A stretch of 64,000 bases of DNA, from the NCBI GenBank assembly GCA_020629635.1, contig JAHDCX010000013.1:62001-126000 (forward strand), given 5' to 3'. The DNA is from Acidimicrobiales bacterium. GTDB lineage: Bacteria; Actinomycetota; Acidimicrobiia; Acidimicrobiales; SHLQ01. Under the pieces are notes generated by a model. It was given only the letters and a program-made list of their open reading frames with translations. It was not told where the DNA came from and searched no databases. Positions within the stretch are counted from its first letter, which is position 1. Each line of letters opens with the position of its first letter. This document shows, one piece after another, positions 14,854 through 20,222 of the stretch. The translations under genes were made by a program, and so were the position numbers.

Positions 14854-16464
14854 GTGACGCCCTACGACGCCGAGTCCTTCACCCCCGAAGAAGCCGACGT
14901 CCTTCGGCGGTACTTCACGAACCTCGACCAGCCGGTCTTCGCACTGGTCAACCTGCCAGAGGTCGTGAAAGGCGCGCTCTTTGCTCGGTACAGCCGATCA
15001 CCGAAGAGCCTTCGGCGGCTCTTCCTGGACGAGTTCGTTCAGGATCTCGACGTCAGCGGCGACGAATCGATCGATGCAACGGTTGGGCTTCGGCGGGCCG
15101 AGGAACTCTACGACCGTGTCTTCTTCCAATACGGCGACGACTCCGTCGCACAGCTCGGCGGCATTCATCTCGCCTGTGAGCAGGCCTCGAACGTGTTGAC
15201 CAAGGTCCTCGAGTGGGGACGCCTGATGTCCTATCTCGAGCAGTCCACTCGTTACATCCGTTACGACGAGCGCCTCGGTGGCCGATACCGCTTCTATCGC
15301 GATGCCGACATCTTGAACTCCGTGCATGGCACCCGATACGTCGGCGAACTCGACCGGATGTTCGACGTGTACTCGGGACTGATCGATCCCATGGAACGGC
15401 ATCATCGTGAGCGCACGCCCAAGACCGATGCTGACGCCGACATTGCCTACAAGATGGCGATCCGGGCGAAGGCCCTCGATTCGATTCGGGGACTGCTTCC
15501 GGCGGCGTCGTTGTCGAATGTCGGGATCTACGGCACGGGGCAGGCGTACGAGGCGTTGCTGTTGCGAATGCGCGCCAGTCCACTTCCCGAAGCGCGGGCC
15601 TACAGCGATCTCATTCTCCATGAACTGCGGAAAGTGATCCCGTCGTTCCTCAAGCGCGTGGATCTACCCGACCGCGGTGAACGGACAAGCGCCTACCTAC
15701 GCGACAACAACGACGCCATGGCGGCTATCGCCGACCGCCTCCTGACCGACGCGCCCTCACCGGAGCCGGGCCCGGAGGTCGATCTCGTCGACTTCGACCC
15801 GGACGCCGAGGTGAAGCTCGTCACGGCGATGCTGTACCCGTTGTCCTCGCTCGGCGAGCGGGAACTCGTCCGACAGGTCCAGGCGATGACCACCGACGAG
15901 CGCATGACGGTGATGCGGACCTATGTGGGGGAGCGGTCGAACCGTCGCCACAAGCCCGGTCGAGCCCTCGAACGCGTCGACTACCGCTTTGACGTGCTCG
16001 GCGACTACGGAGCGTTCCGTGACCTCCAGCGCCACCGAATGATGACCATCGAATGGCAGCCGCTCTCGACCCGCCACGGATTCGTGATGCCCGACTCGGT
16101 TGTCGAAGCTGGCCACGAACACGCCTTTGAGGACGTGATGGCTCGATCCGCTGCACTCTACGAGTCGCTGATTGACGACTTCCCCGCACAGGCGCCCTAC
16201 GCGGTGGCGCTCGGCTATCGGGTCCGGTACTCGATGCAGATGAATGCGCGTGCAGCGATGCACATGCTCGAGCTCCGATCTGCTCCGCAGGGGCACGAGG
16301 CGTACCGAAGTGTCGCCCAGCAAATGCATGTCCAGATCGCCGAACGTGCGGGGCATCGCGTCGTTGCCGAGATGATGCGCTTCGTCGACCACACCGGCGG
16401 CGATGGGCTGGAGCGCCTTGCCGCAGAGAACACGATCGCACAACGGCGGTCCACCACCAGCTGA
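14854..16464 (+). CDS. thyX: Double-domain FAD-dependent thymidylate synthase (ThyX) family protein
   Basis: A 536-residue protein about twice the length of normal ThyX, with two ThyX-like halves. The N-terminal half has LMSYLEQSTRYIRY (124-137), matching the S-x-x-(E/Q)-Q-S-x-R-Y nucleotide-binding loop, but the preceding RHR is reduced to EWGR (120-123). The C-terminal half has an intact RHR at 393-395 (LQRHRMMTIEWQPLSTRHGF), with two extra residues before the conserved Ser405. ThyX normally makes dTMP from dUMP with methylene-tetrahydrofolate, FAD and NADPH. Whether this protein does so is open. GTG start supported by the -10 element at 14840. Confidence 0.85.
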   Translation: MTPYDAESFTPEEADVLRRYFTNLDQPVFALVNLPEVVKGALFARYSRSPKSLRRLFLDEFVQDLDVSGDESIDATVGLRRAEELYDRVFFQYGDDSVAQLGGIHLACEQASNVLTKVLEWGRLMSYLEQSTRYIRYDERLGGRYRFYRDADILNSVHGTRYVGELDRMFDVYSGLIDPMERHHRERTPKTDADADIAYKMAIRAKALDSIRGLLPAASLSNVGIYGTGQAYEALLLRMRASPLPEARAYSDLILHELRKVIPSFLKRVDLPDRGERTSAYLRDNNDAMAAIADRLLTDAPSPEPGPEVDLVDFDPDAEVKLVTAMLYPLSSLGERELVRQVQAMTTDERMTVMRTYVGERSNRRHKPGRALERVDYRFDVLGDYGAFRDLQRHRMMTIEWQPLSTRHGFVMPDSVVEAGHEHAFEDVMARSAALYESLIDDFPAQAPYAVALGYRVRYSMQMNARAAMHMLELRSAPQGHEAYRSVAQQMHVQIAERAGHRVVAEMMRFVDHTGGDGLERLAAENTIAQRRSTTS

Positions 16465-16553: not shown

Positions 16554-17027
16554 ATGTCTGACGAAGAAATCGACGACGACCTCGAACTCGACGAAGACGA
16601 GCTCGACGAAGACGACATCGACGAAGACGACATCGACGAAGACGAGCTCGATCCCGATCTCGACGGCGAGGACGACGACCTGCCGATCGGCGACGGCGAT
16701 CTCGACGACGACCTCGACGATGACGAGGACGAAGACGAAGACGAAGACGGCGCCGCACCCACCAAGCGGCCGTCTGCCAATGACGATGACGATGAGGAAG
16801 ACGACGACGACGTTGAGGCCGACCTCGACGCAATCCTGCGGGATCGTCTTGTCGCCGGAGACGATGAGGACGAAGACGAGGACGAGGACGCTCCTGCGCC
16901 CCCTCCAGCTGCCGGAAGCGACGTCGCCGCCAAGAGCGATGACGAGCGAACCTGTGAATCCTGTTGGCTGATCAAGCCTCTCGTGCAGTTCCCCGACGAC
17001 GGCGTCATCTGCGTCGACTGCAGCTGA
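16554..17027 (+). CDS. Highly acidic protein with C-terminal zinc ribbon (DUF4193-like)
   Basis: A 157-residue protein; most of residues 1-130 are Asp and Glu in short repeats (ELDEDELDEDDIDEDDIDED and similar). The last 25 residues form a four-cysteine zinc ribbon: CESC and, after 14 residues, CVDC. The layout, an acidic low-complexity front with VEADLDAILRDRL and a terminal ribbon, resembles the actinobacterial DUF4193 family. The ribosome-binding site is GAGGA, three bases before the ATG. It may interact with RNA polymerase or nucleic-acid-binding proteins; no function is established from sequence. Confidence 0.8.
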   Translation: MSDEEIDDDLELDEDELDEDDIDEDDIDEDELDPDLDGEDDDLPIGDGDLDDDLDDDEDEDEDEDGAAPTKRPSANDDDDEEDDDDVEADLDAILRDRLVAGDDEDEDEDEDAPAPPPAAGSDVAAKSDDERTCESCWLIKPLVQFPDDGVICVDCS

Positions 17028-18084: not shown

Positions 18085-19311
18085 TCAGCCGTTTGCGGGT
18101 GCGTCGAAGAGTTTCGCGATGTCCGGCACTCGCTTCGACACTTTGCGAATCGTCGTCCGGAGCTCGTCGGTGACCTTGGCGGGAAGCCCTTCCGGAGTCA
18201 CCTGAGAACGCACAGGAGAGAACGCAACCGCATCAACGACGGTCGCCCAACGCTCCGGCGACGTTTCCGACGTCATCGACGCGTTGGCTGCCGCGGTCAG
18301 CTTCTGCTGGAGGTCGGCGGGAAGCGGTGCACCGGCCTTGGGCGGGCGGGACGATTGCCGGAGGGCCCGAACCGTCCGACCTTCCCGCAGGAGCTCGTTG
18401 AGCTCGTTGAGCCAGTTGGTGTGCTCGGCGTCGACCCGAGCAGTCACCGCGGTCTTCAGTTGCTCGGCGAGTTCTCGACTCTCCTCGTCCTTGGCCCCAT
18501 TCTCTGCGGCGACGACGACTTTCCGCAGATCCCGAATGTCGACCTCGTCGATGCCGGCCATCGCCGCCTCCGCGTTGTCGCGCCATTCGGCGCTCCGAAG
18601 ACGTGGGAGCAGCCGCTCGCCGACCGCTTCGAGCATCTTCGGCGGAATCTCGGGTTGACCGGATTGCTTCGCCGTCGCGTTCTGGGCCTCGATGACTTGC
18701 CGGAGGCCCGGCACGCCGTCGCGCAAGACGACCTTTGCGAGTGGCTGCTGGATCTCCGGAATCTCGGCGAGTACCGCATCACGATGGACACGACGCGCCC
18801 GCAGTCGCTTCGGCTTTGGCCGCGCTGGCGCGGGCGGGCGTTCGCGACGGCGGTCATTTCGGCCTCGACCGTCGCGGCCTCCACGCTCGTTGCGTGGGCG
18901 ACGGTCTCGTCCGTCTCGATCGCCGCGGCCTCCGCGGTCACCTCGACCTCCACGATCGCCTCGACCTCCACGATCGCCTCGATCACCGCGGCCTCGACGG
19001 CCATCCCGGTCACCGCGGCGTCCTCGCTTCTCGACGAGTTGTGTCGTGACCCCACCTTCGCCTCGTCCCGATCCCAGGACCTCGAGGGTCTCCGGCCGGG
19101 CCTTCTTCGTTTTCGGTGGCAACACGGCGGTGATGAACACCCCGTCGACCGCGAACTCGGCCTCGGCGCGCACGACGTCGCCGACGCTCGCTCCTTCGTA
19201 CAACAGTGATCCGTCCAGCTCGCCCTTCGGCTGCTTGGCGCCGGCGGCACGCCACGTGTAGCTGCCGTCTTCTCGCTTGCTGGTGAGCTCGACCTCGAGG
19301 CGTCTCGACAT
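18085..19311 (-). CDS. RGD/RGG-repeat protein, candidate RNA-binding
   Basis: A 408-residue protein in three parts. Residues 1-92 form a beta-rich module (SLLYEGASVGDVVRAEAEFA) that could be an OB-like fold. Residues 96-159 are an Arg/Gly/Asp repeat tract built of RGD, RGG and GRG units. Residues 175-408 are helical (PLAKVVLRDGVPGLRQVIEA and further helices). Arg-Gly tracts often bind RNA or drive condensation. ATG 19311 follows a TAGCGT -10 element by seven bases. I do not recognise the family. Confidence 0.78.
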   Translation of the reverse strand: MSRRLEVELTSKREDGSYTWRAAGAKQPKGELDGSLLYEGASVGDVVRAEAEFAVDGVFITAVLPPKTKKARPETLEVLGSGRGEGGVTTQLVEKRGRRGDRDGRRGRGDRGDRGGRGDRGGRGDRGGRGDRDGRDRRPRNERGGRDGRGRNDRRRERPPAPARPKPKRLRARRVHRDAVLAEIPEIQQPLAKVVLRDGVPGLRQVIEAQNATAKQSGQPEIPPKMLEAVGERLLPRLRSAEWRDNAEAAMAGIDEVDIRDLRKVVVAAENGAKDEESRELAEQLKTAVTARVDAEHTNWLNELNELLREGRTVRALRQSSRPPKAGAPLPADLQQKLTAAANASMTSETSPERWATVVDAVAFSPVRSQVTPEGLPAKVTDELRTTIRKVSKRVPDIAKLFDAPANG

Positions 19312-19482
19312 GGCCACCACGCTAGCGGTCGACGGCGAGCACCCCGAAACTCGGAGACCAGCGGTGGACAACGTTGTGGGCAACGTCGGGCGATCTGGGG
19401 AAATCCGGCCGTACATGTTCACAACCCTGGGGATTTCGGGTTTTGGGTTGACGCCCGTTTCGTCGTCGGCAAAGGTGCTCTC

Positions 19483-19806
19483 AGCCGCACGGAACGAAGC
19501 GGGACAACGAGACCGACGGAGCTCGAGACCGAACGCAGGAAACTGCAGCAGGGATCGGGACAACGGAGGGACCGGAATCCCAGGGATGACCGAGCGGTGA
19601 GGACACGGTCCTCGGAGGCGTGACGCTTGCGTCAAACCTCCGGCCCGAAAAGGAACTGCCCCGCCAGACCTCGGTCCAGCGGGGCAGTGATAACACGTCG
19701 AAAGAAACGGTACTGCCGGGACGATCGACACGGGTGGACCCTGACCGAACGTGAGGCCCCTGCGGAATCGGCTCCGGCTGAGACCGCAGGGGCCTCCATC
19801 TTTTTT
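19483..19806 (+). ncRNA. Candidate small RNA ending at a strong terminator
   Basis: A plus-strand terminator at 19753-19806 has no gene in front of it: the gene to the left runs away on the other strand and the gene to the right starts after it. Something non-coding must therefore be transcribed into it, or the terminator blocks stray transcripts. Stems within the region are 6 bp (19599-19604 with 19608-19613) and 10 bp (ACTGCCCCGC at 19655-19664 with GCGGGGCAGT at 19679-19688). The 5' end is guessed from the TTGACG/AAAGGT promoter. It does not match my knowledge of RNase P RNA, tmRNA, SRP RNA or 6S RNA. Confidence 0.4.
19753..19806 (+). terminator. Strong intrinsic terminator
   Basis: A perfect 13-bp stem (GAGGCCCCTGCGG at 19753-19765 paired with CCGCAGGGGCCTC at 19784-19796), an 18-base loop, then six T at 19801-19806. 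The T-run is only on the plus-strand side, which sets the direction. Confidence 0.85.
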
Positions 19807-19816
19807 GATCCGGACC

Positions 19817-19822
19817 TAGCAT
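19817..19822 (+). promoter_or_regulatory. -10 element (TAGCAT), leaderless
   Basis: The hexamer lies seven bases before the ATG at 19830 and directly follows the terminator, so the S4 gene is insulated from upstream transcription. Confidence 0.45.
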
Positions 19823-19829
19823 TCCGGCC

Positions 19830-20222
19830 ATGACCGACCGAGTCCGCGTCGACGTATGGCTCTGGGCTATTCGGGTGTTCAAGACCCGCACCGCCGCCAC
19901 GGATGCGTGCCGCCAGGGCGCCGTGCGCGTGAACGACGTGGTCGCCAAGCCTGCTCGGACCATCGAGGTCGGTGATGCGGTGTCGCTTCGGCGACGCGGC
20001 CACACGCACGCCTTCGCCGTCGAGGGAGTCAGCACTCGCCGAGTGGGCGCCGCAGCCGCCGCCGAACTCTTCACCGACCACAACCCGGCTCCACCGAGAA
20101 CGAGAAACACGCTCAACGACGCCGTCGTTGGTAACCGCGATCCCGGCTCTGGACGCCCAACCAAGAGGGACCGCCGCGACCTGGACCGCCTCCGTGGAAG
20201 GAACACCCGCCGTGACGATTGA
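19830..20222 (+). CDS. S4-domain RNA-binding protein (Hsp15-like)
   Basis: A 130-residue protein. The N-terminal S4 fold is clear: VRVDVWLWAIRVFKTRTAAT, then ACRQGAVRVNDVVAKPARTI and VGDAVSLRRRG. The C-terminal tail is basic (RPTKRDRRDLDRLRGRNTRR). Hsp15 (HslR) relatives bind stalled 50S subunits carrying nascent chains, a plausible but untested role here. The end overlaps the GTG of the next gene by 11 bases. Confidence 0.88.
   Translation: MTDRVRVDVWLWAIRVFKTRTAATDACRQGAVRVNDVVAKPARTIEVGDAVSLRRRGHTHAFAVEGVSTRRVGAAAAAELFTDHNPAPPRTRNTLNDAVVGNRDPGSGRPTKRDRRDLDRLRGRNTRRDD

Follow-up and report, generated by a model that had tools for sequence, protein, structure and literature searches.

What is encoded in an intergenic stretch that lies between two diverging genes and carries a strong T-tailed terminator of its own? 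This question is raised by a locus in the window, by which we mean the whole 64-kb stretch of DNA that was analysed, part of contig C19 of a 4.45-Mb draft genome. The first-pass annotation had read the locus as an undescribed conserved RNA, listing a terminator, hairpins, a palindrome and a promoter candidate; every one of these elements is found in the sequence. The relatives with the same feature are recorded as metagenome-assembled genomes of Acidimicrobiales or Acidimicrobiia, and most of the genomes compared are metagenome assembled. The features of the locus are as follows.

18088 to 19311, minus strand: flanking gene, family not recognised.
19312 to 19829: intergenic stretch between the minus-strand gene and the plus-strand S4-domain gene.
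19363 to 19383, minus strand: two DnaA-box-like 9-mers, TTGTCCACC (19363 to 19371) and TTGCCCACA (19375 to 19383).
19395 to 19442, plus strand: degenerate members of the same array, CTGGGGAAATCC (19395) and TTCACAACCCTGGGGATTTCGGG up to 19440.
19448 to 19476, plus strand: sigma-70-type promoter, TTGACG, 17 bp, AAAGGT, with the RNA start inferred at about 19483.
19483 to 19806, plus strand: predicted non-coding RNA of about 324 nt (about 320 to 720 nt in relatives).
19607 to 19611, plus strand: GGUCC, 5' strand of a long-range closing helix with 19733 to 19740.
19614 to 19641, plus strand: variable hairpin holding the palindrome TGACGC-TT-GCGTCA, sequence not conserved.
19655 to 19688, plus strand: conserved hairpin C, ACTGCCCCGC...GCGGGGCAGT.
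19697 to 19729, plus strand: conserved hairpin D, GUCGA...CGG-UACUG-CCG...UCGAC.
19733 to 19740, plus strand: nearly invariant GGUGGAYC motif, 3' strand of the long-range helix, GGUGGACC in the window.
19753 to 19806, plus strand: Rho-independent terminator, with the fold and T tail kept in relatives and the stem sequence differing.
19830 to 20222, plus strand: S4-domain gene, resembling Hsp15.

The two flanking genes diverge, as had been reported, and the claim that this is the sole strong T-tailed terminator in 64 kb also stands. In a hairpin-plus-T-run scan of both strands of the window, its GC-rich 44-nt hairpin (19753 to 19796, followed by TTTTTT at 19801 to 19806) ranks first at −38.2 kcal/mol, the next-best T-tailed hairpin reaching −25.7 kcal/mol. 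The TTGACG-N17-AAAGGT promoter candidate is conserved in relatives, with TTGAC[CG] and then nAnnnT at 16 to 18 bp in nearly all loci, and in nearly every locus this promoter and a T-tailed terminator frame an RNA of 320 to 720 nt. An automated promoter scan, which does not allow this -10 element, found no promoter there. Most genus relatives furthermore carry a CRP-like palindrome, TGTGA-N6-TCACA (TGTGACTAACTTCACA), where the window copy has TGTGGGCAACGTCGGG, so that in these relatives the site may additionally be used by a regulator of the cAMP-receptor type; in L082, L074, L005, L081 and L087, the array about 75 to 90 bp before the -35 element holds such a palindrome.

The plus strand of 19483 to 19806 folds at −160 kcal/mol (z = −6.2), with none of 100 shuffles as good. 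The minus strand folds well too (z = −5.3), so that fold energy alone does not set the strand, which is instead set by the promoter, the T tail and the comparative data. The parts conserved among relatives are the promoter, hairpins C and D, the GGUGGACC strand and the terminator fold. The 10-bp hairpin proposed earlier corresponds to hairpin C; on the minus strand this hairpin is followed by a T-rich stretch and scores as terminator-like for minus-strand transcription. The palindrome that had been singled out is present at 19621 to 19634, but its sequence, TGACGCTTGCGTCA, is not kept in relatives, and on the aligned sequences the TGACGCTTGCGTCA palindrome is one version of a variable hairpin. 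In hairpin D, CGG/CCG is replaced in relatives by CAG/CUG and GGC/GCC, compensatory changes around a UAC/UAAC loop that is nearly invariant.

With respect to the long-range helix, GGUGGAYC can form as many as 8 bp with a GRYYCRCC-like element far from it, usually 60 to 180 nt from the 5' end, which changes in step in many relatives (GGUCCGCC, GGUUCGCC, GAUCCGCC, AAUUCACC, GAUUCGCC, GGGUCCAC and similar variants). Compared with shuffled 5' sequence, the best duplex has a mean rank of 0.35 rather than 0.5 across 37 related sequences, and only about one-quarter of single sequences reach 0.05 or better. Some members, the window included, have a weak or split helix, which in the window is shared with a second segment near 19642 to 19646. 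These values support the helix without proving it, and less firmly than hairpins C and D. In the fold models, the RNA core is most likely a multibranched domain closed by this helix, and the variable 5' part most likely accounts for the range of RNA lengths. In L077, L080 and L104, small hairpins of nearly identical sequence (CCUUCGGGYCGGC or GGGCAACCGG units) recur many times in the 5' part, a pattern that looks like expansion by duplication.

The first-pass annotation had pointed to compensatory changes among relatives as a check, and six families of the order show such changes. When the 3' domains of genus members were aligned by MAFFT without guidance, the alignment folded to the same hairpins and had 11 pairs with double-sided changes, most of them in the terminator, where the stem sequence has been replaced and the fold kept. 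In a 38-locus alignment, 94.6% of cells pair (69.4% after shuffling; reached by 0 of 500), double-sided compensatory cells number 169 (51.5 in shuffles; 0 of 500 as high) and the covariation score is 0.581 (0.163 shuffled; reached by 0 of 500); of the covariation measures, all but one lie above the whole set of 500 shuffles, the exception being reached by 1 of 500. Sliding the partner by 1 to 3 columns as a control loses most of the signal. A7 and A9 are alignments fitted to the structure, and in helix 1 some covariation stems from register shifts; helices 3 and 4 (hairpin D) are nearly gap-free, yet show U-A, C-G, A-U and G-C exchanges.

The conserved motifs bear on one alternative, a base-pairing regulatory small RNA with its seeds in the hairpin D loop, the GGUGGAYC strand or purine-rich loops. 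The near invariance of GGUGGAYC and of the hairpin D loop would suit such seeds, but GGUGGAYC lies in an intramolecular helix in most predicted folds, and we consider this reading unlikely, if the strongest of the competitors.

Homologs of the locus are confined, as far as our searches reach, to one order. A BLAST search with the intergenic region finds it in 9 of 10 genus relatives; the segment before the promoter and the 3' domain both contain conserved blocks. Covariance model R1 describes 102 nt of the 3' domain without the terminator; it recovers the two divergent genus members on which it was not trained (G003 and G004) and finds homologs in family f18 with E values down to 1e-12, its opposite-strand matches coming mostly from the self-complementary hairpin C. 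Model R2, built from 24 loci, adds homologs in families f7, f24 and f3. With model R3, built from 38 loci, 42 of the order's 397 genomes have a homolog, and six families (f1, f3, f7, f18, f24 and f46) are convincingly represented; a weak match in a seventh, f20, is doubtful. The RNA domain is single copy in matching genomes, except for G990 with two copies (G990:C98:17226-17331 and G990:C45:33855-33958). A pattern search at the DNA level, covering 84,980 species by one genome each, gave 19 stretches, 17 of them in this group. Pattern matches in Sphingomonas (L078) and Ignavibacteriae (L088) are attributed to chance and have no promoter or terminator of this type, as are weak, apparently coding model matches (L052, L054, L055 and L111), which also lack them. 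Only about one-tenth of the genomes of the order match, which means either a patchy family or one whose divergence outpaces the model; because the large searches used strict filters, the real frequency is probably higher.

The RNA does not fall into a described family. As the earlier proposal had anticipated, the region and 20 homologs match no Rfam family at gathering score. Sub-threshold matches (E <= 10) to Ms_IGR-8, BjrC68 and ctRNA_pGA1 rest on the terminator stem and are judged to be due to chance, and a hammerhead match on the minus strand of 19440 to 19475, which scores 15.4 bits against a threshold of 34, was rejected. RNase P RNA (RF00010) has no match at the locus, the genome's copy being on contig C3. 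A CsrA sponge of the CsrB/RsmY type was rejected, with CsrA not found in the genome and GGA counts within the range of dinucleotide shuffles. 6S RNA (RF00013) has no covariance match genome-wide at E <= 1, nor in the region at E <= 10. Together with the structure kept through compensatory changes in six families, this bears out the reading of an undescribed conserved RNA, and we regard the feature as real, and as a new RNA family, with near certainty.

Its closest counterparts in kind are polymerase-binding RNAs. Like 6S RNA, it is a stand-alone structured RNA gene, with a polymerase target that is here proposed by analogy, but it is about twice as long and lacks the long hairpin with a single central bubble. 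Ms1 RNA (MTS2823, scr3559) is likewise actinobacterial, free-standing, structured and of similar length, whereas it adjoins a HAD hydrolase gene; the RNA described here has other neighbours, a multibranched consensus and a DnaA-box-like array, of which the excerpts drawn on from the Ms1 literature make no mention. CoRP RNA of Corynebacterium is also long (about 500 nt), lineage specific and present where 6S and Ms1 are not recognised; it belongs to another order and has a tRNA neighbourhood absent here. Other Actinobacteria were found to carry Ms1, or CoRP where Ms1 is missing, and it was proposed that such a polymerase-binding RNA can escape homology searches (PMC9130861, PMC11077062).

Could the RNA then be a diverged Ms1 or 6S homolog, moved to a new locus and past sequence recognition? 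Its length is comparable with those of Ms1 (about 300 nt) and CoRP, the genome has no 6S match, and the authors of a RIP-seq study propose one abundant RNA-polymerase-binding RNA per species (PMC11077062). Ms1 itself was rejected by synteny: the RNA is on C19, and contig C28 carries the best HAD-IB match, immediately followed by another gene. The Ms1-type hydrolase gene there (G000 C28 3988-4587; L091) lies beside an apparent ssd-type gene with no intergenic room for an RNA, which would fit relocation. Against this stand the absence of any Rfam 6S or actinobacterial small-RNA family at threshold, the different neighbours, a consensus that is not one long hairpin with a central bubble, and the lack of R2 matches outside the order among 396 genomes of the phylum, a result to be read knowing that the divergence of Ms1 itself is too rapid for searches of this kind (PMC9130861). 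On balance, we find such descent rather improbable.

The most informative feature of the locus is one that the first-pass annotation had left out, a DnaA-box-like array. DnaA is the protein that starts chromosome replication, and the reverse complement of the array box is the DnaA box, TTRTCCAC. Upstream of the -35 element, same-orientation boxes (GGTGGAYAAC or CTGGGGA) follow one another in fixed 11-bp steps, at about −106, −95, −84, −73, −51, −31 and −19 from the -35 in 37 loci. Within one mismatch of KGTGGAYAA, 97 boxes are found in the 37 upstream regions of 130 bp, compared with 2.6 predicted from the rest of the same loci. The array of the window is eroded, with only two boxes within one mismatch; these (TTGTCCACC and TTGCCCACA) lie 3 bp apart, the layout of a 'double DnaA box', and the strongly conserved block at 19395 to 19442 follows, with the consensus GGAYAACCCTGGGGATT. 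Boxes are not enriched across the whole window (20 found, 22.5 expected), which marks the cluster as local. In this genome, the dnaA-dnaN region holds TGTGGATAAGTTGTGGACCAA with the same 11-bp step. In E. coli, DnaA binds in vivo, and prefers, box pairs 2 or 3 bp apart (PMC11317965), and by that rule a cluster at 2- to 3-bp spacing is present upstream of the promoter. Judging from these sequences, a DnaA-linked promoter is likely. An origin of replication was rejected, as the locus is not beside dnaA/dnaN and the window has no change in GC skew.

The array resembles E. coli double DnaA boxes, datA/DARS and the DnaA regions of B. subtilis in its same-orientation 9-mers spaced 2 to 3 bp apart. 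As in DnaA-controlled promoters and those clusters, it lies far from dnaA, which is on another contig in this genome and distant from the locus in four single-contig genomes. It differs in belonging, in several families, to the promoter of a structured RNA, and its boxes are putative DnaA-binding sites. The distance from dnaA, and the better conservation of the array than of the 5' half of the RNA, would suit a locus whose functional element is the DNA, a site of DnaA titration or reactivation in the manner of datA, DARS or the B. subtilis clusters, with the RNA secondary. Compensatory helix changes, the fixed distance between the -35 and -10 elements and the conserved terminator nevertheless show selection on the transcript, so that we hold a purely DNA-based function to be quite improbable.

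Neighbouring genes vary among families and even inside the genus, while promoter, RNA and terminator persist; nine genus members keep the promoter and the 3' domain, with the adjoining S4 protein at only about 50% identity or gone. The RNA gene is thus free-standing, framed by a conserved promoter and terminator while its neighbours change, which argues for action in trans. The same observations largely refute a 5' leader or riboswitch of the downstream Hsp15-like gene, which we consider very improbable: the RNA does sit shortly before that gene and on its strand in most members of the genus, but the strong terminator ends it before the gene, and in G003, G004 and other families synteny is lost and another gene lies downstream. 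A small protein gene is barely credible, since the short reading frames found in most copies differ in frame, position and sequence, with no conserved open reading frame across RNA copies and none at all in L049, and since variation follows base pairing. Elsewhere in the window, 14854 to 16464 encodes a 536-aa protein with two stretches matching Thy1 (the flavin-dependent thymidylate synthase family), much longer than the usual ThyX, and 16554 to 17027 encodes a 157-aa protein with very long Asp/Glu runs and then a Cys-containing tail.

The reading that we prefer is therefore a free-standing, structured, trans-acting RNA with its own promoter and terminator, the promoter being under DnaA control, to which we assign a probability of roughly 60%. 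Comparison among relatives establishes the predicted structure, promoter and terminator, the single copy in nearly every genome with the RNA and the independence from neighbours. Positions 19483 to 19806 of the plus strand would encode a structured non-coding RNA of about 324 nt, running from its own sigma-70-type promoter to its own terminator. The phasing of the array strongly suggests that DnaA would bind it cooperatively, activating or repressing the promoter, and synthesis of the RNA would thereby be coupled to DnaA activity and hence to replication or growth state. The RNA may act in trans within an RNA-protein complex. RNA polymerase, sequestered or stored, is a tentative first guess at its target, because 6S, Ms1 and CoRP are the nearest functional analogy among abundant actinobacterial RNAs of this size; a second guess is base pairing with mRNAs. 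Similarly speculative is the fullest form of the proposal, a single-copy structured RNA across the order that is switched by a cooperative DnaA filament and directly links replication initiation to a global regulator, such as RNA polymerase availability. The literature that we searched yielded no RNA of such a DnaA-switched kind.

With these results, an actinobacterial order that has been little studied gains an undescribed RNA family, in a genome where no 6S gene is recognised and the Ms1 site is closed. At this locus, putative control of a non-coding RNA by the replication initiator can furthermore be tested directly. If it is true that the RNA binds RNA polymerase, replication state and transcription capacity would be joined in one locus.
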